From Tabrizicola sp. (GTDB taxonomy: Bacteria; Pseudomonadota; Alphaproteobacteria; Rhodobacterales; Rhodobacteraceae), in the NCBI RefSeq assembly GCF_016793705.1, contig NZ_JAEULO010000066.1:1-64000 (forward strand): a stretch of DNA of 64,000 nucleotides, read 5' to 3'. Made by a program: the position numbers and the translations under genes. Every line of letters starts with the position of its first letter. The first letter of the stretch is position 1. Under the pieces are notes generated by a model. It searched no databases. It worked only from the letters and a program-made list of their open reading frames with translations, and was not told the DNA's origin. Positions 50,436-64,000 of the stretch are shown piece after piece.

Positions 50436-51227
50436 TCAGTCAGAATAGGCGCGCGATTCCTCGTCTTCCATGTAACGGCACTTGTTCAGCACCACGCCCA
50501 GCACCTGGGTCCGCATGGCGAGATCCTTGCCGCATTTCTCGATCTCGGCAACGGTCGTTTCCTCGGCCGCAGCAACCATCAGCGCGCAGTCGACCTGGTC
50601 GAGGAAGGCAAGCGCGTCGTCGCTGACCAGCATCGGCGACATGTCGAACAGGATGACATCCGGGCGCAGCCGCGCCTCGAGCGCATCAATCAGGTCCGCG
50701 GTGCGCGGGGCCGACAAAAGCTCGGCCGGGCTTGTCACGCCAGTCCCGCTGAGCGCGAGCGCCAGATTGGACCCGACGCGCCTGACCTGGGTCATGTCGA
50801 GTTGCCCCTCCCGCAGCCGCGTGGCGAACTGCGGCACGTCGGACAGGCCCAGAATGCCCGACAGCGACGGTCGCCGCAGGTCAAGTTCGACCAGAAGCAC
50901 CCTCTTGTCGGTCAGTCGAGCCAGGCTGAAGGCCAGATTCAGCGCGACCGTCGACTTGCCGCTTCCCGGGGTCGGCGAGGTCACGGCGACCCGGGTCCAG
51001 GAATTTGCGCGCAGGGCCCGCAGCAGATTGGTGCGCATCACGTCAAAACTGGCGGCGTTCTTCCCCGGGTTCCGCGTCACGATTCGGTTGCGTGCCAGCA
51101 GCATCTGGTCCGGGCGAATCTCGGCAAGCTCCTGCCAGGGGCCGCTGTCGGCGGCGGGGGTCCCGGTCTGAAGTTTGCGGTCGCGGGCCGAACGTGCCTT
51201 GGCGAGGGCTGACTGGATCCGTTCCAT
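50436..51227 (-). CDS. BY-kinase-type tyrosine autokinase (CpsD/CapB-like)
   Basis: This 263-residue cytoplasmic ATPase has Walker A SPTPGSGKST (84-93), Walker A' LLVELDLRRP and Walker B VILFDMSPML, the bacterial tyrosine kinase set. The C-terminus has only two tyrosines (YMEDEESRAYSD), fewer than classical tyrosine clusters. It works with a Wzz-type partner to control exopolysaccharide chain length and export. It is the third gene of the operon, six bases after the GumC/Wzz gene. The N-terminal MERIQSALAKARSARD segment resembles XrtA-associated kinases. Confidence 0.88.
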   Translation of the reverse strand: MERIQSALAKARSARDRKLQTGTPAADSGPWQELAEIRPDQMLLARNRIVTRNPGKNAASFDVMRTNLLRALRANSWTRVAVTSPTPGSGKSTVALNLAFSLARLTDKRVLLVELDLRRPSLSGILGLSDVPQFATRLREGQLDMTQVRRVGSNLALALSGTGVTSPAELLSAPRTADLIDALEARLRPDVILFDMSPMLVSDDALAFLDQVDCALMVAAAEETTVAEIEKCGKDLAMRTQVLGVVLNKCRYMEDEESRAYSD

Positions 51228-51233
51228 CTGGGT

Positions 51234-52784
51234 CTACTCGGTCTTCACAGGGGCGGGGGCGTCACCCGCCGCGGGCGGGTTCGGCGCAAGGCCGATCAGC
51301 GTGCCGATCGGGGCGATGTACATATGGACAACCAGAAGGATGATCGGGATGTTGATCAGGAAGACAGCCAGCGTCGCCAGCCGGTTGGCCGACCAGCGGT
51401 GCCGGGGAGGCGCGCCGTCCAGATAGCCGATGGTGCCGAAGGGCGGCGCCCCCAGCGCCTTGACCAGTTCCGACGGGCGCCGGACCGTCTGGTTCAGGAC
51501 TTCCAGCAACAGCAGAAGCGCGCCCGACAGGATCACTCCGGCCCCGAAGGAGGCGATGGCGATGCGCTTGCGGTTCGGCTCGGAGCGGTAGGCAGGAGGC
51601 ACTGCCGCCTCGATCACGGTGATGCGTTGGCCGCGGTCGGTGACCTCGATCCGGTCGCCCATCCGCGCCTCGGACAGGCTGGCCACCGCCTGCTCGTACT
51701 GCACGCGCAACGTTTCGTAGTTGCTTTGCAGCTCCGCCAGCCGGATCGAGTTCGCCGGCGTTGCGTCGATCGAGGTTTCAAGCGCCTCGAGGTCCTTCTC
51801 CAGCCCGGCCTTCTGCTCGGCGAGGTAGGTGATCTGCCCGTCGATATCCAGCATCTGAACCTCGAAGGCCGACAGCTTTCCGCCGGTGCTGGCGCCCAGC
51901 TGCGACTTCACCGCCTCTTCCAGCGCGGCGACTTCCTGTTGCAGCGCCTTCACCCGCGGGTTGGTGGACGACATCACCACCAGGGCCGAGGCAAGCTCCT
52001 GCCGGGCGGTTTCCAGGCGGATTTCCTCGGGTGTGCGGTCCACGCCCGACGAGACAAGCCGGCCGGTCTGGTCGTAAAGCTCGGTCAGGCGGTCGCGCCG
52101 GTCGCGCAATGCGGCCAGTTCGCGGTTGACCTGCAAGAGCCGCTCCTGCTGCGAGGCCTGCCGCGTGCGGCGGTATTCCAGGCTTTCCGGCAGCGCATCG
52201 CGGTTCTTCTGCTCGAACTCCAGGATTTCTGCGTTCTGTTGCGCCAGCTCGGCGGTCAGACGACGGACCTCCTGCTCGAAGAAGTCCAGGGTATTGCCCG
52301 AAGCCTGGGTGCGCAGTTCCGTGCTCCAGGCCAGGACCTGCTGGGCGATCTCGTTGGTCACGCTGGCCGACAGCTCGGGCTCGGGCGCGGCGAAGGACAC
52401 GATGACCACTCCGGTGTTGCCCTGGTTGGTCGGCATGTAGATCGCCACCCGGTTGCCGATCTGGGCCAGCTTCTGTTCCTCGGTTTCCTGGGTCATGCCC
52501 TCGAACAGATTGTGCGCAGTGGCGATGCTCAGCAGGTTCTCGCGCGTCATGATCCGTTGCTGGATCGCCAGCAGGATCTCGTCGGCGGTGGACACCACGG
52601 TCGAGGCGGCCAGGTTGTCGGGAATCTGCGGGCTTTCGATCAGCAGGCGTGCCTCGGCCCGGTAGACCGGAGACATGGACAGCGCATAGAGGATGCCGGC
52701 CATGGTCGCCGTGAAGACGATGGCGATGATGATCGGCAGCCGCCGCAGGATCAGGGAGAGATAGAATCGCGGATCAAAAGTCAT
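51234..52784 (-). CDS. Wzz/GumC-type polysaccharide chain-length protein
   Basis: This 516-residue inner-membrane protein has a first helix at about 14-34, a long periplasmic coiled-coil region (about 170-390), a second helix at about 415-435 and a third near 480-500. It belongs to the polysaccharide copolymerase group that sets chain length and activates the tyrosine kinase. Its stop is six bases before the kinase start, and its start overlaps the ATPase stop (ATGA). The C-terminal extra helix is unlike classical Wzz and nearer to exosortase-linked versions. Confidence 0.88.
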   Translation of the reverse strand: MTFDPRFYLSLILRRLPIIIAIVFTATMAGILYALSMSPVYRAEARLLIESPQIPDNLAASTVVSTADEILLAIQQRIMTRENLLSIATAHNLFEGMTQETEEQKLAQIGNRVAIYMPTNQGNTGVVIVSFAAPEPELSASVTNEIAQQVLAWSTELRTQASGNTLDFFEQEVRRLTAELAQQNAEILEFEQKNRDALPESLEYRRTRQASQQERLLQVNRELAALRDRRDRLTELYDQTGRLVSSGVDRTPEEIRLETARQELASALVVMSSTNPRVKALQQEVAALEEAVKSQLGASTGGKLSAFEVQMLDIDGQITYLAEQKAGLEKDLEALETSIDATPANSIRLAELQSNYETLRVQYEQAVASLSEARMGDRIEVTDRGQRITVIEAAVPPAYRSEPNRKRIAIASFGAGVILSGALLLLLEVLNQTVRRPSELVKALGAPPFGTIGYLDGAPPRHRWSANRLATLAVFLINIPIILLVVHMYIAPIGTLIGLAPNPPAAGDAPAPVKTE

Positions 52785-53851
52785 TCGACAGTCTCATTCG
52801 CCGGGCTTGTGGCATTCGCGGAAAAGAATACACCGTCATCAAGGACTTGCTGGACAGTCGCCTGGGTGACGACCTGCTTTCCCCTGGTGAAGGCGTAGAC
52901 CAGCGAAAGGTCGCATAGCTGATTGACCAGGCGGGGAACACCCCCGCTCACCTCATGTATCAGGTTCACCGCCGTCGCGCTGAAGATTCGCCGGTCGCAG
53001 CCGGCCACCTTCAGCCGATGTGGAATGTAGCCGCGCACCGTCTTCAGGTCCATCGCCGCAAGATGATAGCTGGCCGCCACGCGCTGCGCGAATTGCCGCA
53101 TCCCCGGCCGGGACACCAGATCGCGCAGTTCAGGCTGGCCGATCAGCACGAGTTGCAGCACCTCGTCCTTGCCGGAGTTGATGTTGATGAACATCCGCAG
53201 CTCCTCAAGAGCCTCGGCACTGAGGTTCTGCGCCTCGTCGAAGATGAGCACGACATTCCGGCCCGCCGCGTATTCCGACAGCAGGAAGCTCTGGAAGCGC
53301 GAGAAGAGATCAACATAGCTTTCGTCGATCTCGGCGGGCTGCTCCAGTGCGTGCAGGACCCAACGCAACAGCTCGGCACGCGAGCCGTGGGGGTTCGAGA
53401 TCAGGCCGACACGGACCTCCGGGCCAAGCGAGCGGACGAGGTGCAGAAGCAGCGTCGTCTTGCCCGCGCCGACTTCGCCGGTGATCAGCGTGATCGGGGC
53501 ATGGGCGTGCACGCCGTATTCCAGCATCGTGTAGGCGCGCTGGTGCGACTGCGGCCAGAACAGGAAATCGGGGTCGGGCGTCAGCGCGAAAGGCCGCGCG
53601 GTCAGACCGAAATGCTCGGTGTAGATGTCGGCGGTCCGGGCCGAGGCGGGCGCATCGAACATATAGCGCGACCGGCTGCGGGTGCTGACGGCGGGCTTGG
53701 GCGGGGCTGGCTGGGGGAACGGTTCGGCTGCAGGAAGGGCGACAGGTGGCGGCGCGGGGGTCAGCTCGGCCCCGGGCGGGTCGTCGTCTGCGGCACCCGG
53801 GTCCAGCCACAGGATGCGGGACAACAACTTGCGGGACCTGCTGCGCGTCAT
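52781..53851 (-). CDS. ExeA/XrtA-associated-type AAA ATPase
   Basis: This 356-residue protein has a proline-rich N-terminal extension (about 1-75) and then YTEHFGLTARPFALTPDPDFLF, the ExeA-type start. Walker A is TGEVGAGKT (124-132), Walker B LIFDEAQNL (about 199-207), with sensor VLIGQPELRDL. Such ATPases accompany exopolysaccharide systems linked to exosortase XrtA/PEP-CTERM. No exosortase is in the window, so I keep the name general. It is the first gene of the minus-strand operon, with AAAGGTGAG before the ATG. Confidence 0.85.
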   Translation of the reverse strand: MTRSRSRKLLSRILWLDPGAADDDPPGAELTPAPPPVALPAAEPFPQPAPPKPAVSTRSRSRYMFDAPASARTADIYTEHFGLTARPFALTPDPDFLFWPQSHQRAYTMLEYGVHAHAPITLITGEVGAGKTTLLLHLVRSLGPEVRVGLISNPHGSRAELLRWVLHALEQPAEIDESYVDLFSRFQSFLLSEYAAGRNVVLIFDEAQNLSAEALEELRMFININSGKDEVLQLVLIGQPELRDLVSRPGMRQFAQRVAASYHLAAMDLKTVRGYIPHRLKVAGCDRRIFSATAVNLIHEVSGGVPRLVNQLCDLSLVYAFTRGKQVVTQATVQQVLDDGVFFSANATSPANETVE

Positions 53852-54264: not shown

Positions 54265-57200
54265 ATGAAGGACGTGATGCAGGACACCCCCGCAGACACC
54301 GACATTGCGATCGTGGGGATGGCCGCGCACCTGCCTGGTGCGGCCGACATCCAGGCGTATTGGGAAAACCTGCGTGACGGGCGCAGCGCTGTCCGGCAGC
54401 TGAGCGAGGAGGAAATCCTTGCCTCGGGCGAAAGCCCCGCCCTGCTGCGCAATCCGAACTATGTCCCGGCGGCCGCGCTGCTGGAAGGCTTCGACCGCTT
54501 CGATGCGGAATTCTTCGGCTTCTCGCCGAAAGAGGCCGCGATCCTGGACCCGCAGCACCGGCAGTTCCTGGAAGTTGCCTGGGAGGCGCTGGAGAATGCC
54601 GGCCACACGCCCGAAGGCTTCAAGGGCCGCATCGGCGTCTTCGCCGGTTGCGGCATGGGCAGCTATTTCTACTTCAACCTCTGCTCGAACCCCGCGCTGG
54701 TCGAAAGCACCGGCATGTTCCTCCTCCGCCATACCGGCAACGACAAGGACTTCCTGTCGACCCGCGTCAGCCATGTCTTCGACCTCAAGGGGCCAAGCCT
54801 CGGGCTCCAGACGGCCTGCTCGACCTCGCTGGTCGCCACGCACTACGCGATCCAGGCGCTGTTGAACGGCGAATGCGACATGGCGCTGGCGGGGGGCGTG
54901 ACCATCGACCTGCCCCAGGGCCGGGGCTACATCTACAAGGAGGGTGAGGTCCTGTCGCCCGACGGGGTCTGCCACGCCTTTGACCACCGGGCGCAGGGCA
55001 CGGTCTTCGGCTCGGGCGCGGGGACCGTGCTGCTGCGGCGGCTGGACGATGCGCTGGCGGATGGCGACCATGTCTGGGGCATCATCAAGGGGTCCGCGGT
55101 CAACAACGATGGGGCTGCGAAGGCAGGCTATCTGGCCCCTTCGGTGGAGGGGCAGTCGGCCTGCATCGCGACGGCGCTTGCCGTCGCGGGGACCCCGGCC
55201 GAGACGCTGGACTATGTCGAATGCCATGGCACCGGCACCTATCTCGGCGACCCGATCGAGGTGGCCGCGCTGACCGAAGCCTTCCGGCGCACCACCGACG
55301 CCAAGGGCTTTGCCCGCATCGGCAGCGTCAAGACCAACATCGGCCACCTGGATACGGCAGCGGGCGTCGCCAGCCTGATCAAGACCACGCTCGCCTTGCA
55401 CAACGCGCAGATGCCGCCGTCCCTGAACTTCGAGGCGGCGAACCCGGCAATCGACTTCGACAACAGCCCCTTCCGCGTGAACGACCGCCTGACCGACTGG
55501 CCCCGCCGCATGGGCCCGCGCCGGGCCGGGGTGAACAGCCTTGGCGTCGGCGGGACCAATGCGTTCGTCGTCGTGCAGGAGCCTCCCGCCGTGGCGGCCC
55601 CTGAGGCCTCGGACTGGCCGTTCCAGTTGATCACGCTTTCCGCCCGCAGCCAGTCGGCCTTGGGCGAGGCGTCCTCTCGCCTGGCCGCGCATCTCAAGGC
55701 GCATCCGGAGCAGGACCTCGCCGACGTGGCCTGGACGCTGAAGCATGGTCGCCGCGCCTTCGAGCACCGCCGCGTGCTGGTGGCCGCCAGCCATGAGGAG
55801 GCCGCGAAGCTGTTGGAGGCGGGCGATCCCCGCCGCGTCTTCACCCAGCGCCGCCTTGGCGATGCCCCCGACGTCGTCTTCATGTTCCCCGGCGGTGGCG
55901 CGCAATACCCGAACATGGCGCGCGACCTGTACGAGACGGAACCCGTCTTCGCCGAATGGATGGACCGGGGCCTTGCCGCCCTTGGGCCGGCCGAGGCCGA
56001 GACTCGCGCCCTCTGGCTCCCGGCGGAGGGGCAGGAAGCCGCCGCCGCCGAGGCACTCCGCCAGCCGTCCAAGCAGTTGCCGCTGATCCTGATCGTCGAG
56101 GTGGCGCTGGCCAGGCTCTGGGAAAGCTGGGGCATCAGGCCCGCCATGCTGATCGGGCACTCGATGGGCGAGAACGCCGCCGCCTGCGTGGCGGGCGTCA
56201 TGACGCTGGAAGCCGCTGTGGGCCTCGTCCGCCTGCGCGGGCAGCTTTTCGACACGGTGCCCGCCGGGGGCATGCTGTCGGTCCCGCTGTCAGAGGCGGC
56301 GCTGAAACCCTACCTTGGCGATCTCGACATCGCCTCGATCAACGCGCCGGAACTGACTGTGGTCTCCGGCTCCGACGCCGGTCTCAAGGACCTTGCCGAA
56401 CGCCTCAAGGCCGACGACATCGACACCACCCGCATCGCCATCGACATCGCGGCACATTCGAAGATGCTGGAAGGCATCCTCGCTGCCTTCCGCGCCCATC
56501 TGGCCGGGATGCAGATGTCGCCGCCGCAAATCCCGATCATCTCCAACCGCTCCGGCCAGGTGCTGACGGATGCCGAGGCCACCAGCCCCGACTACTGGGT
56601 CGCCCATCTGCGCAACACCGTGCGTTTCGCCGATGGCATGGCGACCCTTCGCCAGAAGGCCGACCGGGTCTATCTGGAGGTTGGACCCGGCCGCGCGATG
56701 GCCTCCCTTGCGCAGGCGAACGGCGCGATGGGCGGCCAGCCGGTGCCCGCCAGCCTCCGCCACCCCGACGACACCGTCTCCGACGACCGCCATTTCATCG
56801 CCACCCTCGGCCGCCTCTGGGCCTGCGGGGCAGAGCCCGACCTGACCCAGCTCTGGGGCGAGGCCAAACGCCGCCGCGTCCCCCTGCCGACCTACCCCTT
56901 CCAGCGCAGCCGCTACTTCGTCGAACGCGGCCAGCCCGCCGTGGTGACCGAGGCCGACCTGACCCCCACCCGCCACGACAGCGTGACCGACTTCGGCTAC
57001 AAGATCGGCTGGCGCGTGATGCCCGCCGACTGCCCGGTCGACGTTGAAACCGAACTGGGCGCACCCCTCACCTGGCTTGTCTTCGCTGACGAGGCGGGTC
57101 TCGCCCGCGCCGCCGTCCAGCGCCTGCGCGCGGCCAGCCACCGCGTCATCACCGTGCACGCAGGCGATGCCTTCGCCCGCACCTCGGACGACACCTACAC

Positions 57201-60200
57201 CCTCGCCCCCGAACACGGGCGCGAGGGGTATGACGCCCTCCTCGCCGACCTCGCCCAGCGCAACCTGTCGCCCGCGCGCATCGCCCACTTCTGGCTGGTT
57301 ACGGAAGGCGAGACCTTCCGCCCCGGTTCCAGCTTCTTCCAGCGCAACCTGGAGCAAGGCTTCTGGAGCCTCTTCTTCCTCGGCCAGGCGATGGGTGAAA
57401 TCGGGCTGAAGCCCCTGCCCCATCTCACCGTCGTCACCTCTGGCGCCGCCCAGGTCCGCACCGAAGCCCTGCCCTACCCGGAGAAGGCCACGGTCGCAGG
57501 CCCCGTCCGCGTGATGCCGCGCGAACTGCCGGGGCTGACGGCAAGCCTTCTGGACCTGACTCTCGACCGCAAGACGATCCCGGCGGAAGCCGTCTCCGCC
57601 GTCCTCGAAGAAATGCTCGCAACACCGGCGAACACCGTCGCCGCCATCCGGGGCAGCCGGAGACTGGAAACCCGCCTCGTCCCGGCCAGGCTGCCCGAAC
57701 CGGCCGAGGTCCCCGAAGGCTCGGTCTGGGTCATCACCGGCGGCTTCGGCGGGATCGGCGTGACCGTCGCCGAACGCCTGATGCGCGACCGCCATGCGAA
57801 GATCGCCCTGCTCGGACGGCGTGTGCCGGAACCGGGCAGCGTCCGCGCCGGGGTGCTCTCGCGGCTGGAACGGCTGGGCCGGGTCATGGCCGTCGCCGCC
57901 GATGTCTGCAACCCCGAGGACATGCGCGCCGCCTTCGACCGGGTGAAGGCCGAGTTCGGCCCGATCTACGGCGTCGTCCATGCCGCCGGGACGGTCGATG
58001 ACGCCCCCCTCCTCGGCAAGGACCCCGGCAGCGCCGATGCGGTCCTGTCACCCAAGGTGCATGGCACCAAGCTTCTCGACAGCCTTCTTCCCGACGGCAG
58101 CGTCGACCGGATCGTGCTGTTCAGCTCGACCTCCACGGTGATCACCCCGGCAGGTCAGGCGGACTACGTTGCCGCGAACGAATACCTCAACGCCTTCGCC
58201 CGGTCGCGCTCGGGCGGGATGACCAGGGTGACGGCGGTCAACTGGGGCATCTGGTCGGGGATCGGCATGGCCGCAGATGCCGACGCCCGCCGTCAGGGCA
58301 AGGACGCGGGCGCCCCGCTGCCCGGCCAACTGGTGCTGGAGCGGATGCAGAAGGGCGAGGATGAAACCCGTTTTCACGCGACCCTGACCAAGGAGCACTG
58401 GGTGATGGACGACCATCGCCTGCTCGACGGCACCGCCGTCCTGCCCGGTGCCGCCTGGCCCGAAATCGCGCATGAGGCGCTGATGGCGGCGGGCGGCAAG
58501 CCGGGCCTCCAGCTTACCGACCTGACGGTGTTCCGCCCCCTGCGGCTGGAGGCCGACCTCCCCCGCGACCTGCGCGTCACCCTGACCCGCACCCGCGACG
58601 GCAACCAGCGCCTGCAAGCCCGCGCGCTGGAGCCGCAAGGTTGGGCCATGACCGCCGAGATGGGCGTGACGCCGCTGACCGCCCCGGCAGGCACGATCGA
58701 CCTGGCTGCAATCGCCGCCCGCTGCCCGGAGAAAGCCACGGCAGCAGGGGGCGAGAACCTGCCTTCCGCGCAAGAGGACCGCATCGCCTTCGGTCCCCGC
58801 TGGCAGGTAATCCGGGCGACCGCCCTGGGCCACCGCGAGGGGCTGGCAACCCTTGCCCTGCCGACGCAGGCCGTCCAGGACACCGCGACCTGCACCATCC
58901 ACCCCGCGCTCTACGACATCGGCACCGGCTGGGGCATCGCGCTTCTGCCGAAGGTGGAGGAAGGCTTCGTCTGGGCCCCGGTGATGACCACCGCGATCCG
59001 CGTCCACGGCGCGCTCCCGGCCGAAATCCGCAGCTGGGTGCGGCTGGCGGGCGATCCCGCCGAGGACGTGGCCAGCTTCGACGTGACCCTGACCGACCCG
59101 TCCGGGAAAGTGCTGGTCGAGGTCGAAGGCATCACCTTCCGCAAGGTCGCCTTCGAGGAAGCCCTCGCCCGCCCCGCGCCGCCGAACCCGCGCGAAGTGA
59201 TCCGCGACGACGAGAGCCGAGGCAACTCCCCCGCCGAACAGCGCCTTGCCCAGGCCCTCGCGGGCGGCATCCGCCCCGCCGAGGGTGCCGAGGCCTTCCT
59301 CCGAGCCATCGCGGCGGACGGGGCGCAGGTGCTGGTCTCCTCCCTCGACCTCGACGCTTTGGTCAAACAGGCCAACGCCCCGGTGGCGGCGGAAACCGAA
59401 GGCCCCGGCTTTGCCCGGCCCGAGCTGGAAACCGCCTATGTCGCGCCCCGGAACAGCGTCGAGCGCATCCTCGCGGGCTTCTGGTCCGACCTCCTCGGCG
59501 TCGCCGAAGTGGGGGTGGAGGACGACTTCTTCACCCTCGGCGGCCACTCCCTGATCGCTGTCCGCCTGTTCGCGATGATCCGGCGGCAGTGGAAGGTCGA
59601 TTTCCCGATCTCGGTCCTGTTCGAGGCCCCGACCATCGCCCGCTGCGCCGCCCTGATCATCGACCGCATCGGCCCGCAGGATGACAGCGCCCCTGCCGCC
59701 ACCGAACTCGCCGACCCCGCGGGGCCGAAGTTCACCCATCTTGTTGCCATGCACAGGGGCGAGGGCGGGCCGAAGACCCCCTTCTTCCTCGTTGCCGGCA
59801 TGTTTGGCAACGTCCTCAACCTGCGGCACCTTTCAAGCCTCCTCGGCACCGACCGGCCGTTCTACGGTCTTCAGGCAAAGGGGCTTTTCGGCGAAGATGC
59901 CCCGCACATGACCATCGAGGAGGCGGCAACCTCCTGCCTCGCCGAGATCCGGCAAGTACAGCCGAAGGGGCCCTATCTCCTCGGCGGCTTTTCCGGTGGC
60001 GGCCTCACGGCCTGGGACATCGGGAGGCAGCTGCGCGCCGAGGGAGAGGAAGTGGCGCTGATGGTGCTCCTCGACACTCCGCTGCCCGTCCGGCCGCATC
60101 TCACCAAGCCGGACAAGGCGATGATCAAGCTGGCCGAAATCCGCGCCGGGGGGCCGCAGTTCCTAGCCGAATGGGCCAAACGCCGCTGGGAGTGGGAACG

Positions 60201-60591
60201 TTCGCGCCGCGCCAAGGCCGCGAACGAACCCGATCCGACGGTTCCCTCCTACAACAACGCCGCCATCGAAACGGCCTTCCGCCATGCCATCGGCATCTAC
60301 GACCTGAAGGGCTGGGAGGAAGGCAAGGTCGTGCTCTACCGCCCGCCGCTCGATCGCCGCTTCAAGGTGACCGGCGGCAACTGGGTCTCTTCCGCTCGGG
60401 AATATGTCTACCCCGACAACCTCTGGACGCCCTTCGCGTCCCGGCTGGAGGTGGTGGAAGTCCCCGGCGACCACGACTCGATGGTGCTGGAACCGAACGT
60501 GCGCGTATTGGCCGCACGGATGAAGGCCGCGATTCAGGCGGCCGAGGCTGGCGATCTTCGCCTGTCCGATCATAGACTTGCTGCCGAGTGA
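54265..60591 (+). CDS. Type I polyketide synthase, KS-AT-KR-DH-carrier protein-TE
   Basis: This 2108-residue one-module synthase has the ketosynthase with Cys185 (QTACSTS), His321 and His361. The acyltransferase has GHSMGE with Ser633; its substrate-linked motif reads AAHS (729-732), neither the malonyl HAFH nor the methylmalonyl YASH pattern. The ketoreductase has TGGFGGIG near 1158 and Tyr1301; the dehydratase-like domain has His1384 and Asp1551 (HPALYD). The carrier protein has GGHSL with Ser1762, and the thioesterase has GFSGG with Ser1910 and His2070. KR precedes DH, the reverse of the usual order. The carrier motif is peptidyl-carrier-like. It is in an operon with the NRPS 13 bp downstream. 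Confidence 0.93.
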   Translation: MKDVMQDTPADTDIAIVGMAAHLPGAADIQAYWENLRDGRSAVRQLSEEEILASGESPALLRNPNYVPAAALLEGFDRFDAEFFGFSPKEAAILDPQHRQFLEVAWEALENAGHTPEGFKGRIGVFAGCGMGSYFYFNLCSNPALVESTGMFLLRHTGNDKDFLSTRVSHVFDLKGPSLGLQTACSTSLVATHYAIQALLNGECDMALAGGVTIDLPQGRGYIYKEGEVLSPDGVCHAFDHRAQGTVFGSGAGTVLLRRLDDALADGDHVWGIIKGSAVNNDGAAKAGYLAPSVEGQSACIATALAVAGTPAETLDYVECHGTGTYLGDPIEVAALTEAFRRTTDAKGFARIGSVKTNIGHLDTAAGVASLIKTTLALHNAQMPPSLNFEAANPAIDFDNSPFRVNDRLTDWPRRMGPRRAGVNSLGVGGTNAFVVVQEPPAVAAPEASDWPFQLITLSARSQSALGEASSRLAAHLKAHPEQDLADVAWTLKHGRRAFEHRRVLVAASHEEAAKLLEAGDPRRVFTQRRLGDAPDVVFMFPGGGAQYPNMARDLYETEPVFAEWMDRGLAALGPAEAETRALWLPAEGQEAAAAEALRQPSKQLPLILIVEVALARLWESWGIRPAMLIGHSMGENAAACVAGVMTLEAAVGLVRLRGQLFDTVPAGGMLSVPLSEAALKPYLGDLDIASINAPELTVVSGSDAGLKDLAERLKADDIDTTRIAIDIAAHSKMLEGILAAFRAHLAGMQMSPPQIPIISNRSGQVLTDAEATSPDYWVAHLRNTVRFADGMATLRQKADRVYLEVGPGRAMASLAQANGAMGGQPVPASLRHPDDTVSDDRHFIATLGRLWACGAEPDLTQLWGEAKRRRVPLPTYPFQRSRYFVERGQPAVVTEADLTPTRHDSVTDFGYKIGWRVMPADCPVDVETELGAPLTWLVFADEAGLARAAVQRLRAASHRVITVHAGDAFARTSDDTYTLAPEHGREGYDALLADLAQRNLSPARIAHFWLVTEGETFRPGSSFFQRNLEQGFWSLFFLGQAMGEIGLKPLPHLTVVTSGAAQVRTEALPYPEKATVAGPVRVMPRELPGLTASLLDLTLDRKTIPAEAVSAVLEEMLATPANTVAAIRGSRRLETRLVPARLPEPAEVPEGSVWVITGGFGGIGVTVAERLMRDRHAKIALLGRRVPEPGSVRAGVLSRLERLGRVMAVAADVCNPEDMRAAFDRVKAEFGPIYGVVHAAGTVDDAPLLGKDPGSADAVLSPKVHGTKLLDSLLPDGSVDRIVLFSSTSTVITPAGQADYVAANEYLNAFARSRSGGMTRVTAVNWGIWSGIGMAADADARRQGKDAGAPLPGQLVLERMQKGEDETRFHATLTKEHWVMDDHRLLDGTAVLPGAAWPEIAHEALMAAGGKPGLQLTDLTVFRPLRLEADLPRDLRVTLTRTRDGNQRLQARALEPQGWAMTAEMGVTPLTAPAGTIDLAAIAARCPEKATAAGGENLPSAQEDRIAFGPRWQVIRATALGHREGLATLALPTQAVQDTATCTIHPALYDIGTGWGIALLPKVEEGFVWAPVMTTAIRVHGALPAEIRSWVRLAGDPAEDVASFDVTLTDPSGKVLVEVEGITFRKVAFEEALARPAPPNPREVIRDDESRGNSPAEQRLAQALAGGIRPAEGAEAFLRAIAADGAQVLVSSLDLDALVKQANAPVAAETEGPGFARPELETAYVAPRNSVERILAGFWSDLLGVAEVGVEDDFFTLGGHSLIAVRLFAMIRRQWKVDFPISVLFEAPTIARCAALIIDRIGPQDDSAPAATELADPAGPKFTHLVAMHRGEGGPKTPFFLVAGMFGNVLNLRHLSSLLGTDRPFYGLQAKGLFGEDAPHMTIEEAATSCLAEIRQVQPKGPYLLGGFSGGGLTAWDIGRQLRAEGEEVALMVLLDTPLPVRPHLTKPDKAMIKLAEIRAGGPQFLAEWAKRRWEWERSRRAKAANEPDPTVPSYNNAAIETAFRHAIGIYDLKGWEEGKVVLYRPPLDRRFKVTGGNWVSSAREYVYPDNLWTPFASRLEVVEVPGDHDSMVLEPNVRVLAARMKAAIQAAEAGDLRLSDHRLAAE

Positions 60592-60604: not shown

Positions 60605-63600
60605 ATGACCCTGACCGCCCTTCTGATCGGCAACGAAAGCCTGACGGTGGACTGCGGCAAGCGCTGGCTGGAACGGGGCCACGCCCTCGCCGCCGTGGTG
60701 ACGCGCGAGCCGAAGGTGGCGGGCTGGGCAAGCGCAGCTGGCCTCCGGGTCATCGCTCCCGGCGCGGGGCTTGAGGCGAGGACGGCGGGACTGGCGGTCG
60801 ACTGGGTGCTTTCGGTCGCCAACCTGTCGCTGGTGCCGGACGCGGTCATGGCGCTGGCGCGGCAAGGCGGGGTGAACTTCCACGACGGTCCCCTTCCCGG
60901 CTATGCAGGCCTGAACGCCCCGGTCTGGGCGTTGCTTAATGGCGAGGCGACCCATGCGATCACCTGGCACCTGATGACCCAGGGCATCGACGAGGGCGAG
61001 GTGCTGGCCACCCGCAGCTTCCCCATCGAGGCCGACGACACCGCCTTCACCCTGAACGCCCGCTGCTTCGCCGCCGCCGTGGACAGCTTCCCCGAGGTGA
61101 TCACCACGATGGAGGCCGGGGGCCACCCGCGCCAGCCGCAGGTTTCCGGCACGCGGCATGTCTGGCGCCGGGCCGACCGTCCCCGCGCGGGCGGTCTGCT
61201 CGATTTCACCCAACCCGCCGAGACCGTCGCCCGGACCGTCCGGGCGCTGGACCACGGCGGCTATCGCAACCCCCTTGCCGCCGCCAAGGTCGACGCTGCG
61301 GGCCAGATCTGGGCCGTGGGCGCCGCCGAAATCATCCTCGGTGACGGCGCTCCCGGCACGGTTCTGGGCCGCAGTGCCGATCACCTCGACATCGCCTGCG
61401 CCACTGGCGCGGTGCGGCTTTCCGGGCTGACCTGCCTCAAGGGGCTGCCCATCGACACCGCCCGTGCCGGGGCCGCGCTCGCCTCGCCGACCGAGGCCGA
61501 AGCCGCGGCGCTGGACGCAGCCCTCGCCCCGGTCGCGGAAGCCGAGCCCCGCCTGCGCGGCCTCCTCCTGAAACCCGATCCGGCGGTCACTGCCGCAGCC
61601 GGCACCGCCCCGGACTGGCGGCAAATCCCCCTCCCCGCCGCCGGAGCCAGCTGGCTGGCCCTCGCCGCGCTCCGTGCCCTCGGCCGCAGCGGCGGCGACA
61701 TCGCCTTCGCCTCGGGACAAGACCCCGCACCGGGCCATGTGCTCCCCTGGGCTCCCGTGCGGCTCGACACCACCGGACCCGTCCTCGCCGCCGAGGCGCG
61801 GGTAGCCAAGGTCTTCGACGCTGCGAAAACCGCGACCGGCCTCGCTGCCGATCTCGCGCTCCGCGAGCCCGCACTCACCGCACTCACCCCCTCGGGCCTT
61901 GCCGTCAGCGAGGGGTCCGGGCCGCTCGCCGGGACCGCTGTGACGCTGGCAGGCAACGCGCTCTGGCACGACGCGACCACGATTTCCACCAGCGAAGCCG
62001 CCACCCTCGCTGCCCGGATCACCCGCCTCCTCTCCGAGATGGCCGCGCATCCCGAGGCCGACCTCGCGGACCTCAGCCCGCTGTCCCAGGCCGAAACACA
62101 GGTCTACGCGGGCGCCTTGCATGCCACCGCACGGGACTACGACCGCAGCCTGACCATCCCCGCGGCAATCCTTGCGCAGGCCCGGCGGACCCCCGATGCC
62201 GTGGCGGTGATCGCGGGCGAGACGAAGCTCACCTACGCCGACCTCGCCACCCGCGCCGCCCGGATCGCGAACACGCTTCGCAGCATGAACGTCGGCAAGG
62301 GAACTCTCGTCGGCCTCGCCTGCCGCCGCTCGACCGACATGGTCGCGGGCGCGCTTGGCATCCAGCTGGCGGGCGCGGCCTATGTCCCGATGGACCCGGC
62401 CTACCCCGCCGACCGGCTCGCGCTTTATGCCGAAGATTCCGGCTGCCCCGTCATTCTCACCGAAAGCGCGGTGGCCGAGGCCCTGCCGCAAGGCCCCGCG
62501 CACCTCATCCTCGACACCGACCCGCGCCTTGCCGAAGCCGCCACAACCCCGCCGACCGGCCCGACCGCCGAAGACCCGGCCTATGTGATCTACACCTCCG
62601 GCTCCACCGGCAGGCCGAAGGGTGTCGTCGTCACCCACCGCAACGCACTGAATTTCTTCGCGGGCATGGACGACGTGCTCGGCACCGACGCGGGCACCTG
62701 GCTTGCCGTCACCTCGCTTTCCTTCGACATCTCGGTGCTGGAGCTGTTCTGGACCCTCACCAACGGCTTCACCGTTGTCCTCGCCGACGATGCCGCGCGG
62801 GTGCGTCCCTCGGGCGGCGGCAATCCCGGCGTCTCCACGCGGGGGATGGAGTTCTCGGTCTACTACTGGGGCAACGACGACCTGCCCGGCCCCGCGAAAT
62901 ACGAGCTTCTCCTCGAAGGCGCGAAATTCGCCGACCAGAACGGCTTCTGCGCCGTCTGGACGCCCGAGCGTCACTTCCACGCCTTCGGCGGCCCCTACCC
63001 CAACCCCTCCGTCACCGGCGCAGCGGCGGCGGCGATCACGAAGAATATCGGTGTGCGCGCGGGCAGCATCGTGGCGCCGCTGCACCATCCCGCCCGCATC
63101 GCCGAGGAATGGGCGATCATCGACAACCTGACCAACGGGCGCGCCGGGATGGCCTTCGCCTCCGGCTGGCAGCCGGACGATTTCGTCCTCCGCCCCGAGA
63201 ACACGCCCCCCGCCAACCGGCAGGCGCTGTTCGATGCGCTCGACCAAGTCCGCCGCCTCTGGCGCGGCGAGGCGGTGGAGTTCCCGAGGAAGGACGGGAC
63301 TCCCTTTGCCGTGAAGACCCAGCCCCGCCCGGTCTCGAAGGAAGTCCAGGCCTGGGTGACGACCGCCGGAAACCCGGAAACCTGGCGCGATGCGGGGAAG
63401 GCGGGGGCCAATGTGCTGACCCACCTCCTCGGCCAGTCCATCGCGGAAGTGGCCGACAAGGTGAAGCTCTACCGCGCGGCATTGGCCGAGGCCGGGCATG
63501 ACCCCAAGCGCCACAAGGTCACGCTGATGCTGCACACCTATCTGGCGGCGGAGCGTGAGACCGCGCGGGAAGTGGCGCGCGAGCCGATGAAGAACTACCT

Positions 63601-64000
63601 CCGCTCGGCGGCGGCCCTGATCAAGCAATACGCCTGGGCCTTCCCCGCCTTCAAGAAGCCGCAGGGCGTGGCGAACCCGATGGACATCGACCTCGGCTCG
63701 CTGGCCCCGGATGAGCTGGAGGCGATCCTCGACTTCGCCTTCCTGCGCTACTTCGACGATTCGGGCCTGTTCGGCACCGTGGAAGACGCCGTGAAACGGG
63801 TCGAGGAGTTGAAGGCCATCGACATCGACGAGGTCGCCTGCCTGATCGACTACGGCATCCCGACCGCCGTGGTGCTGGACGGCCTGAAGCCGGTGGCCGA
63901 GGTCCTGCGGCTGACCAATGCCGGGGCTGGCGCGGACGAGACGATGGCAGGCCTGATCCAGCGCCACGGCGTCACGCATCTGCAATGCACCCCCTCGATG
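60605..64000 (+). CDS. NRPS: formyltransferase, truncated condensation, adenylation with inserted luciferase-like monooxygenase (partial)
   Basis: Open to the window end, 1132 residues so far. The N-terminal formyltransferase domain (about 1-290) has NFHDGPLPGYAGLN with Asn91 and His93, and Asp129 (GIDEGE). Residues 300-510 keep only the end of a condensation-like fold (LSPLSQAE). The adenylation domain starts near 520 (TYADL), with A3 YTSGSTGRPKG near 663 and A4 SFDISVLELF near 707. A luciferase-like FMN monooxygenase is inserted from about 748 (MEFSVYYWGNDD) to 1100, and A5 resumes as HGVTHLQCTPSM at the edge. GGAG at 60594-60597 precedes the ATG. It is an initiating module: formylation of an aminoacyl starter plus oxidation. 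Confidence 0.92.
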   Translation, partial: MTLTALLIGNESLTVDCGKRWLERGHALAAVVTREPKVAGWASAAGLRVIAPGAGLEARTAGLAVDWVLSVANLSLVPDAVMALARQGGVNFHDGPLPGYAGLNAPVWALLNGEATHAITWHLMTQGIDEGEVLATRSFPIEADDTAFTLNARCFAAAVDSFPEVITTMEAGGHPRQPQVSGTRHVWRRADRPRAGGLLDFTQPAETVARTVRALDHGGYRNPLAAAKVDAAGQIWAVGAAEIILGDGAPGTVLGRSADHLDIACATGAVRLSGLTCLKGLPIDTARAGAALASPTEAEAAALDAALAPVAEAEPRLRGLLLKPDPAVTAAAGTAPDWRQIPLPAAGASWLALAALRALGRSGGDIAFASGQDPAPGHVLPWAPVRLDTTGPVLAAEARVAKVFDAAKTATGLAADLALREPALTALTPSGLAVSEGSGPLAGTAVTLAGNALWHDATTISTSEAATLAARITRLLSEMAAHPEADLADLSPLSQAETQVYAGALHATARDYDRSLTIPAAILAQARRTPDAVAVIAGETKLTYADLATRAARIANTLRSMNVGKGTLVGLACRRSTDMVAGALGIQLAGAAYVPMDPAYPADRLALYAEDSGCPVILTESAVAEALPQGPAHLILDTDPRLAEAATTPPTGPTAEDPAYVIYTSGSTGRPKGVVVTHRNALNFFAGMDDVLGTDAGTWLAVTSLSFDISVLELFWTLTNGFTVVLADDAARVRPSGGGNPGVSTRGMEFSVYYWGNDDLPGPAKYELLLEGAKFADQNGFCAVWTPERHFHAFGGPYPNPSVTGAAAAAITKNIGVRAGSIVAPLHHPARIAEEWAIIDNLTNGRAGMAFASGWQPDDFVLRPENTPPANRQALFDALDQVRRLWRGEAVEFPRKDGTPFAVKTQPRPVSKEVQAWVTTAGNPETWRDAGKAGANVLTHLLGQSIAEVADKVKLYRAALAEAGHDPKRHKVTLMLHTYLAAERETAREVAREPMKNYLRSAAALIKQYAWAFPAFKKPQGVANPMDIDLGSLAPDELEAILDFAFLRYFDDSGLFGTVEDAVKRVEELKAIDIDEVACLIDYGIPTAVVLDGLKPVAEVLRLTNAGAGADETMAGLIQRHGVTHLQCTPSM

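Follow-up and report, generated by a model that had tools for sequence, protein, structure and literature searches.

What does a nonribosomal peptide synthetase (NRPS) start module make when it carries both a formyltransferase (FT) domain and a monooxygenase (MOx) built into its adenylation (A) domain, and which pathway does it serve? The gene that raises this question starts at position 60605 of a 64,000-nucleotide stretch of Tabrizicola sp. DNA (the window, positions 1–64,000 of contig NZ_JAEULO010000066.1, which is contig 33 of the genome and 131,821 bases long; coordinates past 64000 are contig positions). It lies between genes for a polyketide synthase (PKS) and a phosphopantetheinyl transferase (PPTase). 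We put at roughly 0.55 the probability that the NRPS is the first module of a two-protein NRPS–PKS line serving an exopolysaccharide (EPS) pathway, with a small acyl product that decorates or builds the polysaccharide. The link to EPS loci within the family Rhodobacteraceae is the firmest new result, and is a setting that the original prediction, made from the window's sequence, had missed.

An intact start module

The frame opened by the ATG at 60605 runs uninterrupted to the end of the window and on to contig position 65134, encoding 1,508 amino acids without a stop or frameshift. The join was checked on the contig, where the first 4,000 bases of the stretch used for the extension are identical to the last 4,000 of the window. 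Since the frame continues, we rejected the possibility that the window edge conceals a frameshift, a stop or an error of assembly. Thirteen bases separate the start of the gene from the PKS stop, and at its other end the stop codon shares bases with the PPTase start codon (ATGA), so that PKS, NRPS and PPTase look like one operon. The parts of the module and the gene that follows it are listed here with the evidence that defines them.

60605..64000 in the window and on to contig 65134, plus strand: NRPS start module, FT, condensation-domain remnant, A domain with MOx insert, carrier (T) domain (open frame, domain profiles)
60605..61429, plus strand, residues 1–275: formyltransferase domain with Asn91, His93 and Asp129 (Pfam, alignment)
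61946..62164, plus strand, about residues 448–520: condensation-domain remnant, C-terminal end (profile against solved condensation domains)
62174..62830, plus strand, residues 524–742: first part of the adenylation domain, with A3 (YTSGSTG) and A4 (FDISVLELFW) (Pfam, alignment)
62852..63904, plus strand, residues 750–1100: TIGR04020 luciferase-like FMN monooxygenase insert (NCBIfam, Pfam, PDB match)
63932..64000, plus strand, residue 1110 onward: second part of the adenylation domain; A5–A10, AMP-binding_C and the carrier domain lie beyond the window (profiles, alignment)
Contig 65131–65778, directly after the NRPS gene: PPTase gene

Pfam matches follow the same order: Formyl_trans_N at residues 61–166, Formyl_trans_C at 197–275, AMP-binding in two stretches (best 524–732), Bac_luciferase at 764–1070, AMP-binding_C at 1298–1371 and PP-binding at 1400–1464. 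The original prediction had described a formyltransferase domain with Asn91, His93 and Asp129, a condensation-domain stub and an A domain interrupted between A4 and A5 by a luciferase-like monooxygenase, and had proposed as checks an extension past 64000, a TIGR04020 profile search and a reading of the A-domain code. The checks bore it out on all but the stub, which had to be redrawn.

In 109 of the 110 rows of the alignment all three FT residues, whose roles are catalytic, are conserved; the remaining row, a partial sequence, has a gap there. The best solved relatives of the domain by sequence are ArnA, sugar N-formyltransferases and methionyl-tRNA formyltransferase (Fmt), all scoring higher than the LgrA chains (E 1e-4 to 8e-4). 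An N-terminal FT with its Asn, His and Asp is followed by A and T with no complete condensation domain, which is the make-up of a formylating NRPS start module. Transfer of a formyl group from formyltetrahydrofolate to the aminoacyl-S-T thioester is predicted from this arrangement.

Of the stub, the end of a condensation domain is recognisable. A profile of residues 300–520 built from 35 sequences matched solved condensation domains well only at its positions 149–229, about the last 80 (microcystin synthetase B, E 1.4e-11), and residues 300–447 are conserved within the family and match no recognised domain. The Pfam Condensation profile found nothing in the window protein and gave weak matches in only 2 of the 35 members (best E 0.031). 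The HHxxxD motif is absent from the window protein, as is HHxxxDG from the first 560 residues of all 109 relatives. A good match limited to about 80 profile positions and the absence of HHxxxDG rule out a working condensation domain.

The monooxygenase insert and the predicted substrate

The insert lies between A4 (from residue 707) and A5 (NMYGPTET, from residue 1177). It scores 468.7 bits against TIGR04020 (seco_metab_LLM; curated cut-off 244.45) and spans profile positions 1–340 of 341. The nearest solved protein is PuwE (6ket), matched over its length with E 2.2e-100, and no other long stretch of the NRPS protein is as well conserved in the alignment. The same genome encodes a second TIGR04020 monooxygenase, which stands alone without NRPS fusion (L014:7951-9168; contig 28, 53088-54131; 451.2 bits, above the cut-off).

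The ten-position specificity code of the A domain, read by motif from the alignment, is DILQLGMIWK, one step away from the reference glycine code DILQLGLIWK. Of the 110 rows in the alignment, 107 have the form DILQ[M/L/F/Y]GMIWK; the exceptions are a row with a gap, a row with an X and a row with V in place of I. The code also holds in seven members taken from elsewhere, one of which has A at the variable position. Judged by this code, the substrate is probably glycine.

A luciferase-like FMN monooxygenase inside an A domain for glycine, in the window protein between A4 and A5, is what that protein shares with the modules of myxothiazol, melithiazol, solanimycin (SolF) and corallorazine-like systems. 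In the myxothiazol and melithiazol modules a condensation domain has acylated the chain before MOx acts on it, whereas the window protein is a start module whose N-acyl group would be formyl. With the FT-A-T start module of linear gramicidin synthetase, LgrA, it shares an N-terminal FT fused to A–T and the Asn/His/Asp residues; it differs in its glycine code, its MOx insert and the condensation remnant between FT and A. Known MOx-bearing A domains likewise take glycine (PMC10204066, PMC11342130; here and below, statements with a PMC number hold for the available parts of the source). By analogy with solanimycin and corallorazine, the built-in monooxygenase may hydroxylate the α-carbon of glycyl-S-T (PMC10204066, PMC11342130). 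The N-formylated, oxidised starter unit of the original prediction remains the natural one for an initiation module of this kind, and its residue is probably glycine.

The partner polyketide synthase

The gene upstream of the NRPS encodes a PKS with ketosynthase (KS), acyltransferase (AT), ketoreductase (KR), dehydratase (DH), acyl carrier protein (ACP) and thioesterase (TE) domains.

54265..60591, plus strand: type I PKS, KS-AT-KR-DH-ACP-TE, 2,108 amino acids (domain profiles, alignment)

The window PKS was aligned with 73 others, those left of 78 after the five no longer than 1,900 residues had been set aside. The KS Cys and two His, the AT Ser and Arg658, the KR Tyr and Asn, the ACP Ser and the TE Ser are invariant in all 74 sequences; the TE His is kept in 73, the remaining row being a gap. 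In the DH, His and Asp are retained, and the second motif reads DxxTG, with TG in place of the usual Q/H. The extender is probably malonyl, but the AT motif, AAHS, differs from both textbook AT motifs and makes the assignment tentative.

Location in exopolysaccharide loci

Searches with the window genes (tblastn) found the PKS in 79 of 80 loci, the single miss being a contig that begins inside the NRPS, and the PPTase in 73. In 63 of the 80 a gene for a glycosyltransferase separates PKS from NRPS, and 20 have the order Wzx, PKS, glycosyltransferase, NRPS, PPTase, Wzz. In other loci the set is surrounded by WecG, Wzy, tyrosine kinase and further glycosyltransferases. EPS gene families occur in 78 of the 80 loci, both misses being contigs of 10–11 kb, compared with 0 of 19 arbitrary 20-kb stretches. 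These families had been defined from the loci themselves, and the test was therefore repeated with Pfam families across whole genomes.

In 20 cassette genomes, chosen by hand from 109 and mostly for few contigs, WecG (PF03808) lies within 15 kb of the cassette in every one. Seventeen of the genomes have Wzz (PF02706) within the same distance, with scores under the Pfam cut-off in two, and the Bac_transf sugar transferase (PF02397) is that close in 11, or in 15 if the distance is widened to 30 kb. WecG is present anywhere in only 4 of 20 genomes without the cassette, that is, with no match at E 1e-100; these were chosen among the no-match genomes listed for the family and phylum samples described below, where G008, G019, G021, G030 and G033 were passed over for fragmentation or lower completeness and others as a matter of choice. 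The chance of finding WecG within 15 kb is about 0.9% per genome if one WecG is assumed in 4 Mb, and since the genomes are related the product over 20 of them is not a true probability.

Two of the four cassette-free genomes with WecG were inspected at that gene. In G249 WecG sits in a similar EPS locus, together with Wzx, Wzy and glycosyltransferases, and 40 kb of sequence there gave no match to PKS, NRPS or PPTase, so that the cassette seems to have been added to a backbone system; G012 has WecG and weak glycosyltransferase matches only. Plasmid records with a match number 28, showing that some copies are plasmid-borne, and polysaccharide genes surround the set in all six of the annotated records examined. 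One of the plasmids, from Ruegeria conchae (L163), has rhamnose genes and a gene for the VPLPA-CTERM exosortase XrtD upstream of its cassette.

Around the window's own cassette lie the following genes.

50436..51227, minus strand: CpsD-type tyrosine autokinase of polysaccharide export, TIGR03018-like, below cut-off (Pfam, NCBIfam)
51234..52784, minus strand: polysaccharide chain-length determinant Wzz, TIGR03007-like, below cut-off (Pfam, NCBIfam)
52781..53851, minus strand: ATPase resembling the XrtA/PEP-CTERM-associated TIGR03015, below cut-off (NCBIfam)
Contig 68885-70534, minus strand: relative of the Roseobacter-cluster glycosyltransferase, about 4 kb downstream of the NRPS

With TIGR03015-, TIGR03007-, TIGR03018- and TIGR03027-like neighbours, the locus resembles XrtA/PEP-CTERM-type EPS loci. 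It differs from them in that all these neighbours fall below the curated cut-offs and in that it holds an NRPS–PKS line. It was not assigned to the XrtA/PEP-CTERM type, the scores being 249.6 against 324.5 bits for TIGR03015, 159.4 against 278.85 for TIGR03007 and 107.8 against 230.65 for TIGR03018. The PPTase gene is followed by one for a 315-residue protein (contig 65775-66722; L013:5775-6722), relatives of which were found by tblastn in 34 of the 80 loci. Neither Pfam nor NCBIfam recognises it, its PDB match is no better than chance, and it is SGNH hydrolase-like by motifs alone.

Distribution and natural variants

At a threshold of E 1e-100 or better, NRPS matches, some of them partial, occur in 109 of 295 sampled Rhodobacteraceae genomes, the window's own included. 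A sample of 398 genomes of the phylum gave 16 matches, ten within the family and six outside it (four full length, two without the FT part), which places the cassette in further alphaproteobacterial families. A scan of named records, considering the best 80 of 511 confirmed places, returned Rhodobacterales by title, seven Hydrogenophaga records and one record labelled Exiguobacterium. In a quick tree of 41 hand-picked rows, the six Hydrogenophaga rows form one group nested inside Rhodobacterales, which suggests transfer from alpha- to betaproteobacteria. These counts rule out a rare oddity, and the original prediction's view that the combination is unusual for the group finds no support in them or in a published orphan cluster (PMC4337385). 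The record labelled Exiguobacterium profundum (L095, CP059262.1) bears a Rhodobacterales-like cassette, and its assembly is probably mislabelled. Three of the family matches each contain one in-frame TGA (G245:C129, G144:C1 and G022:C309).

Two natural variants depart from the common architecture. In G085 the NRPS is FT-A-T without the MOx insert, and the PKS has no DH stretch and does not show the usual KR Tyr motif; the motifs of FT, A, T, KS, AT, ACP and TE are all retained. The A-domain code of this protein is exactly DILQLGLIWK. Its congener G677 has both the MOx insert and the DH (compare L177 with L169). The joint loss of MOx, DH and the KR Tyr motif suggests that oxidation and β-processing (MOx, DH and KR) shape one product. 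The second variant, G097 (L170, contig 17), is a decayed cassette in an EPS locus: it lacks the catalytic residues of FT along with the Cys motif of KS and the Ser motifs of AT and T, its PKS lies in two frames, and the A motif is kept.

Proposed pathway and alternatives

The sequences show an intact gene, its domain order and conserved residues, its regular pairing with the PKS and its link to EPS loci. We infer from these observations a substrate, an order of formylation and oxidation, a product and its attachment to the polysaccharide. The PPTase encoded next to the NRPS would arm the carrier domains, and the A domain would load glycine. N-formylation of glycyl-S-T by the FT domain would then remove the need for a working condensation domain, the nitrogen being acylated as in the known MOx modules, and the built-in monooxygenase would hydroxylate the glycyl α-carbon. 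The PKS would accept the N-formyl (α-hydroxy)glycyl group and add one malonyl-type unit, which the KR would reduce and the DH perhaps dehydrate, before the TE releases or transfers a small C4 formamido-acyl group. This group would most likely become a decoration or building block of the polysaccharide, or be otherwise needed for it, while the products of the surrounding Wzx/Wzy/Wzz-type genes would polymerise and export the polymer. A stricter version, in which the line is built into the EPS pathway and an N-formylated, α-oxidised, glycine-derived C4 acyl is fixed to the repeat unit before flipping and polymerisation, is tentative, its odds falling somewhat short of even; the product of the orphan cluster would then adorn the surface sugar instead of being a free natural product.

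Several points weigh against this proposal. The cluster has no known product, no attaching enzyme has been identified, and what co-location shows is that a pathway is shared and not that the acyl is covalently attached. Without the usual Q/H in the second DH motif, dehydration is doubtful, and the co-loss of DH and MOx is a single event. The cassette genomes are related, so that their counts are not independent, and the XrtA-type neighbours score below the NCBIfam cut-offs. Among the six matches outside the family, the same test detects EPS families only in L158; at the edge of L157 a WecG-like fragment can be made out by eye, and L159 and L160 have no EPS matches.

The last two loci, which hold PKS and NRPS with no EPS matches nearby, would suit an ordinary secondary-metabolite cluster making a free, diffusible N-formyl-glycyl-derived molecule (a signal, metallophore or antibiotic), for which EPS loci were merely the carrier genomic island. 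So would the terminal thioesterase of the PKS, the plasmid-borne copies and the nesting of the Hydrogenophaga copies inside Rhodobacterales, by which the cassette has moved. A mere carrier island accords poorly, however, with WecG within 15 kb in all 20 cassette genomes when 16 of the 20 cassette-free genomes have none, and with the glycosyltransferase gene that stands between the two synthase genes in 63 of the 80 loci. Among the labelled families of the 80 neighbourhoods, the only exporters to stand out as recurrent are polysaccharide flippases and export proteins, in a comparison that included no dedicated search for exporter or immunity genes. We consider a free metabolite unlikely.

It is rather improbable that the formyl group is sacrificial, α-hydroxylation breaking an N-formyl hemiaminal so that formamide is lost and a glyoxylyl starter is left for the PKS to extend, in the manner of the C–N cleavage that follows MOx action in myxothiazol and melithiazol. 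The window NRPS has the same arrangement of glycine A domain and MOx as the system in which hydroxylation of glycine leads to spontaneous amine loss and T-bound glyoxylate (PMC11342130), but α-hydroxyglycine is retained in solanimycin B (PMC10204066). Moreover, a formyltransferase would be a costly route to a glyoxylyl starter, and the FT residues of G085 are intact despite the absent MOx insert. An iterative PKS making a longer, polyene-like acyl chain with an N-formyl-glycyl head, as a lipid part or anchor of the polysaccharide, is very improbable given the non-canonical second DH motif, even though KS-AT-KR-DH-ACP with no enoylreductase recognised by profile search is compatible with iterative polyene synthesis and glycosyltransferases lie in the neighbourhood.

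Relation to published clusters and significance

The NRPS–PKS line that we place in the EPS pathway belongs to a cluster already described. A set of PKS, NRPS, glycosyltransferase and PPTase genes was reported as a conserved Roseobacter cluster without known product in 28 of 57 genomes (PMC4337385). The window has the same four kinds of gene in the same bacterial group: PKS, NRPS and PPTase are adjacent, and the glycosyltransferase relative is found not between the first two but about 4 kb farther downstream. The comparison of loci that the original prediction had called for found matching loci across Rhodobacterales.

An NRPS-like/type I PKS hybrid without known product in 18 of 37 Roseibaca species (NRPS 4,527 nt, PKS 6,333 nt; PMC10584327) is probably the same cluster, as probably are Inhi_1972 and Inhi_1974 of Phaeobacter inhibens (PMC4062626), both being matched by size or gene numbers and not by alignment. 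The available parts of these three papers do not give the FT/MOx domain order or the EPS setting, and the words 'exopolysaccharide' and 'polysaccharide' are absent from the main text of PMC4337385. A literature search, with subscription journals mostly outside its coverage, found no statement placing the cluster in an EPS locus and no single paper combining FT with MOx in A domains. Since the cluster is a published orphan, the novelty lies in its architecture, predicted substrate and setting.

The cluster has been listed as an orphan since at least 2015 and is present in about half of the Roseobacter genomes of that survey (PMC4337385) and in more than a third of the family genomes sampled here. 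Its placement in an EPS pathway redirects the search for the product from culture extracts to the surface polymer. If the proposal is true, FT and MOx in a single start module would be a compact route to oxidised formamido acids, and modular NRPS–PKS chemistry would be a source of polysaccharide decorations.

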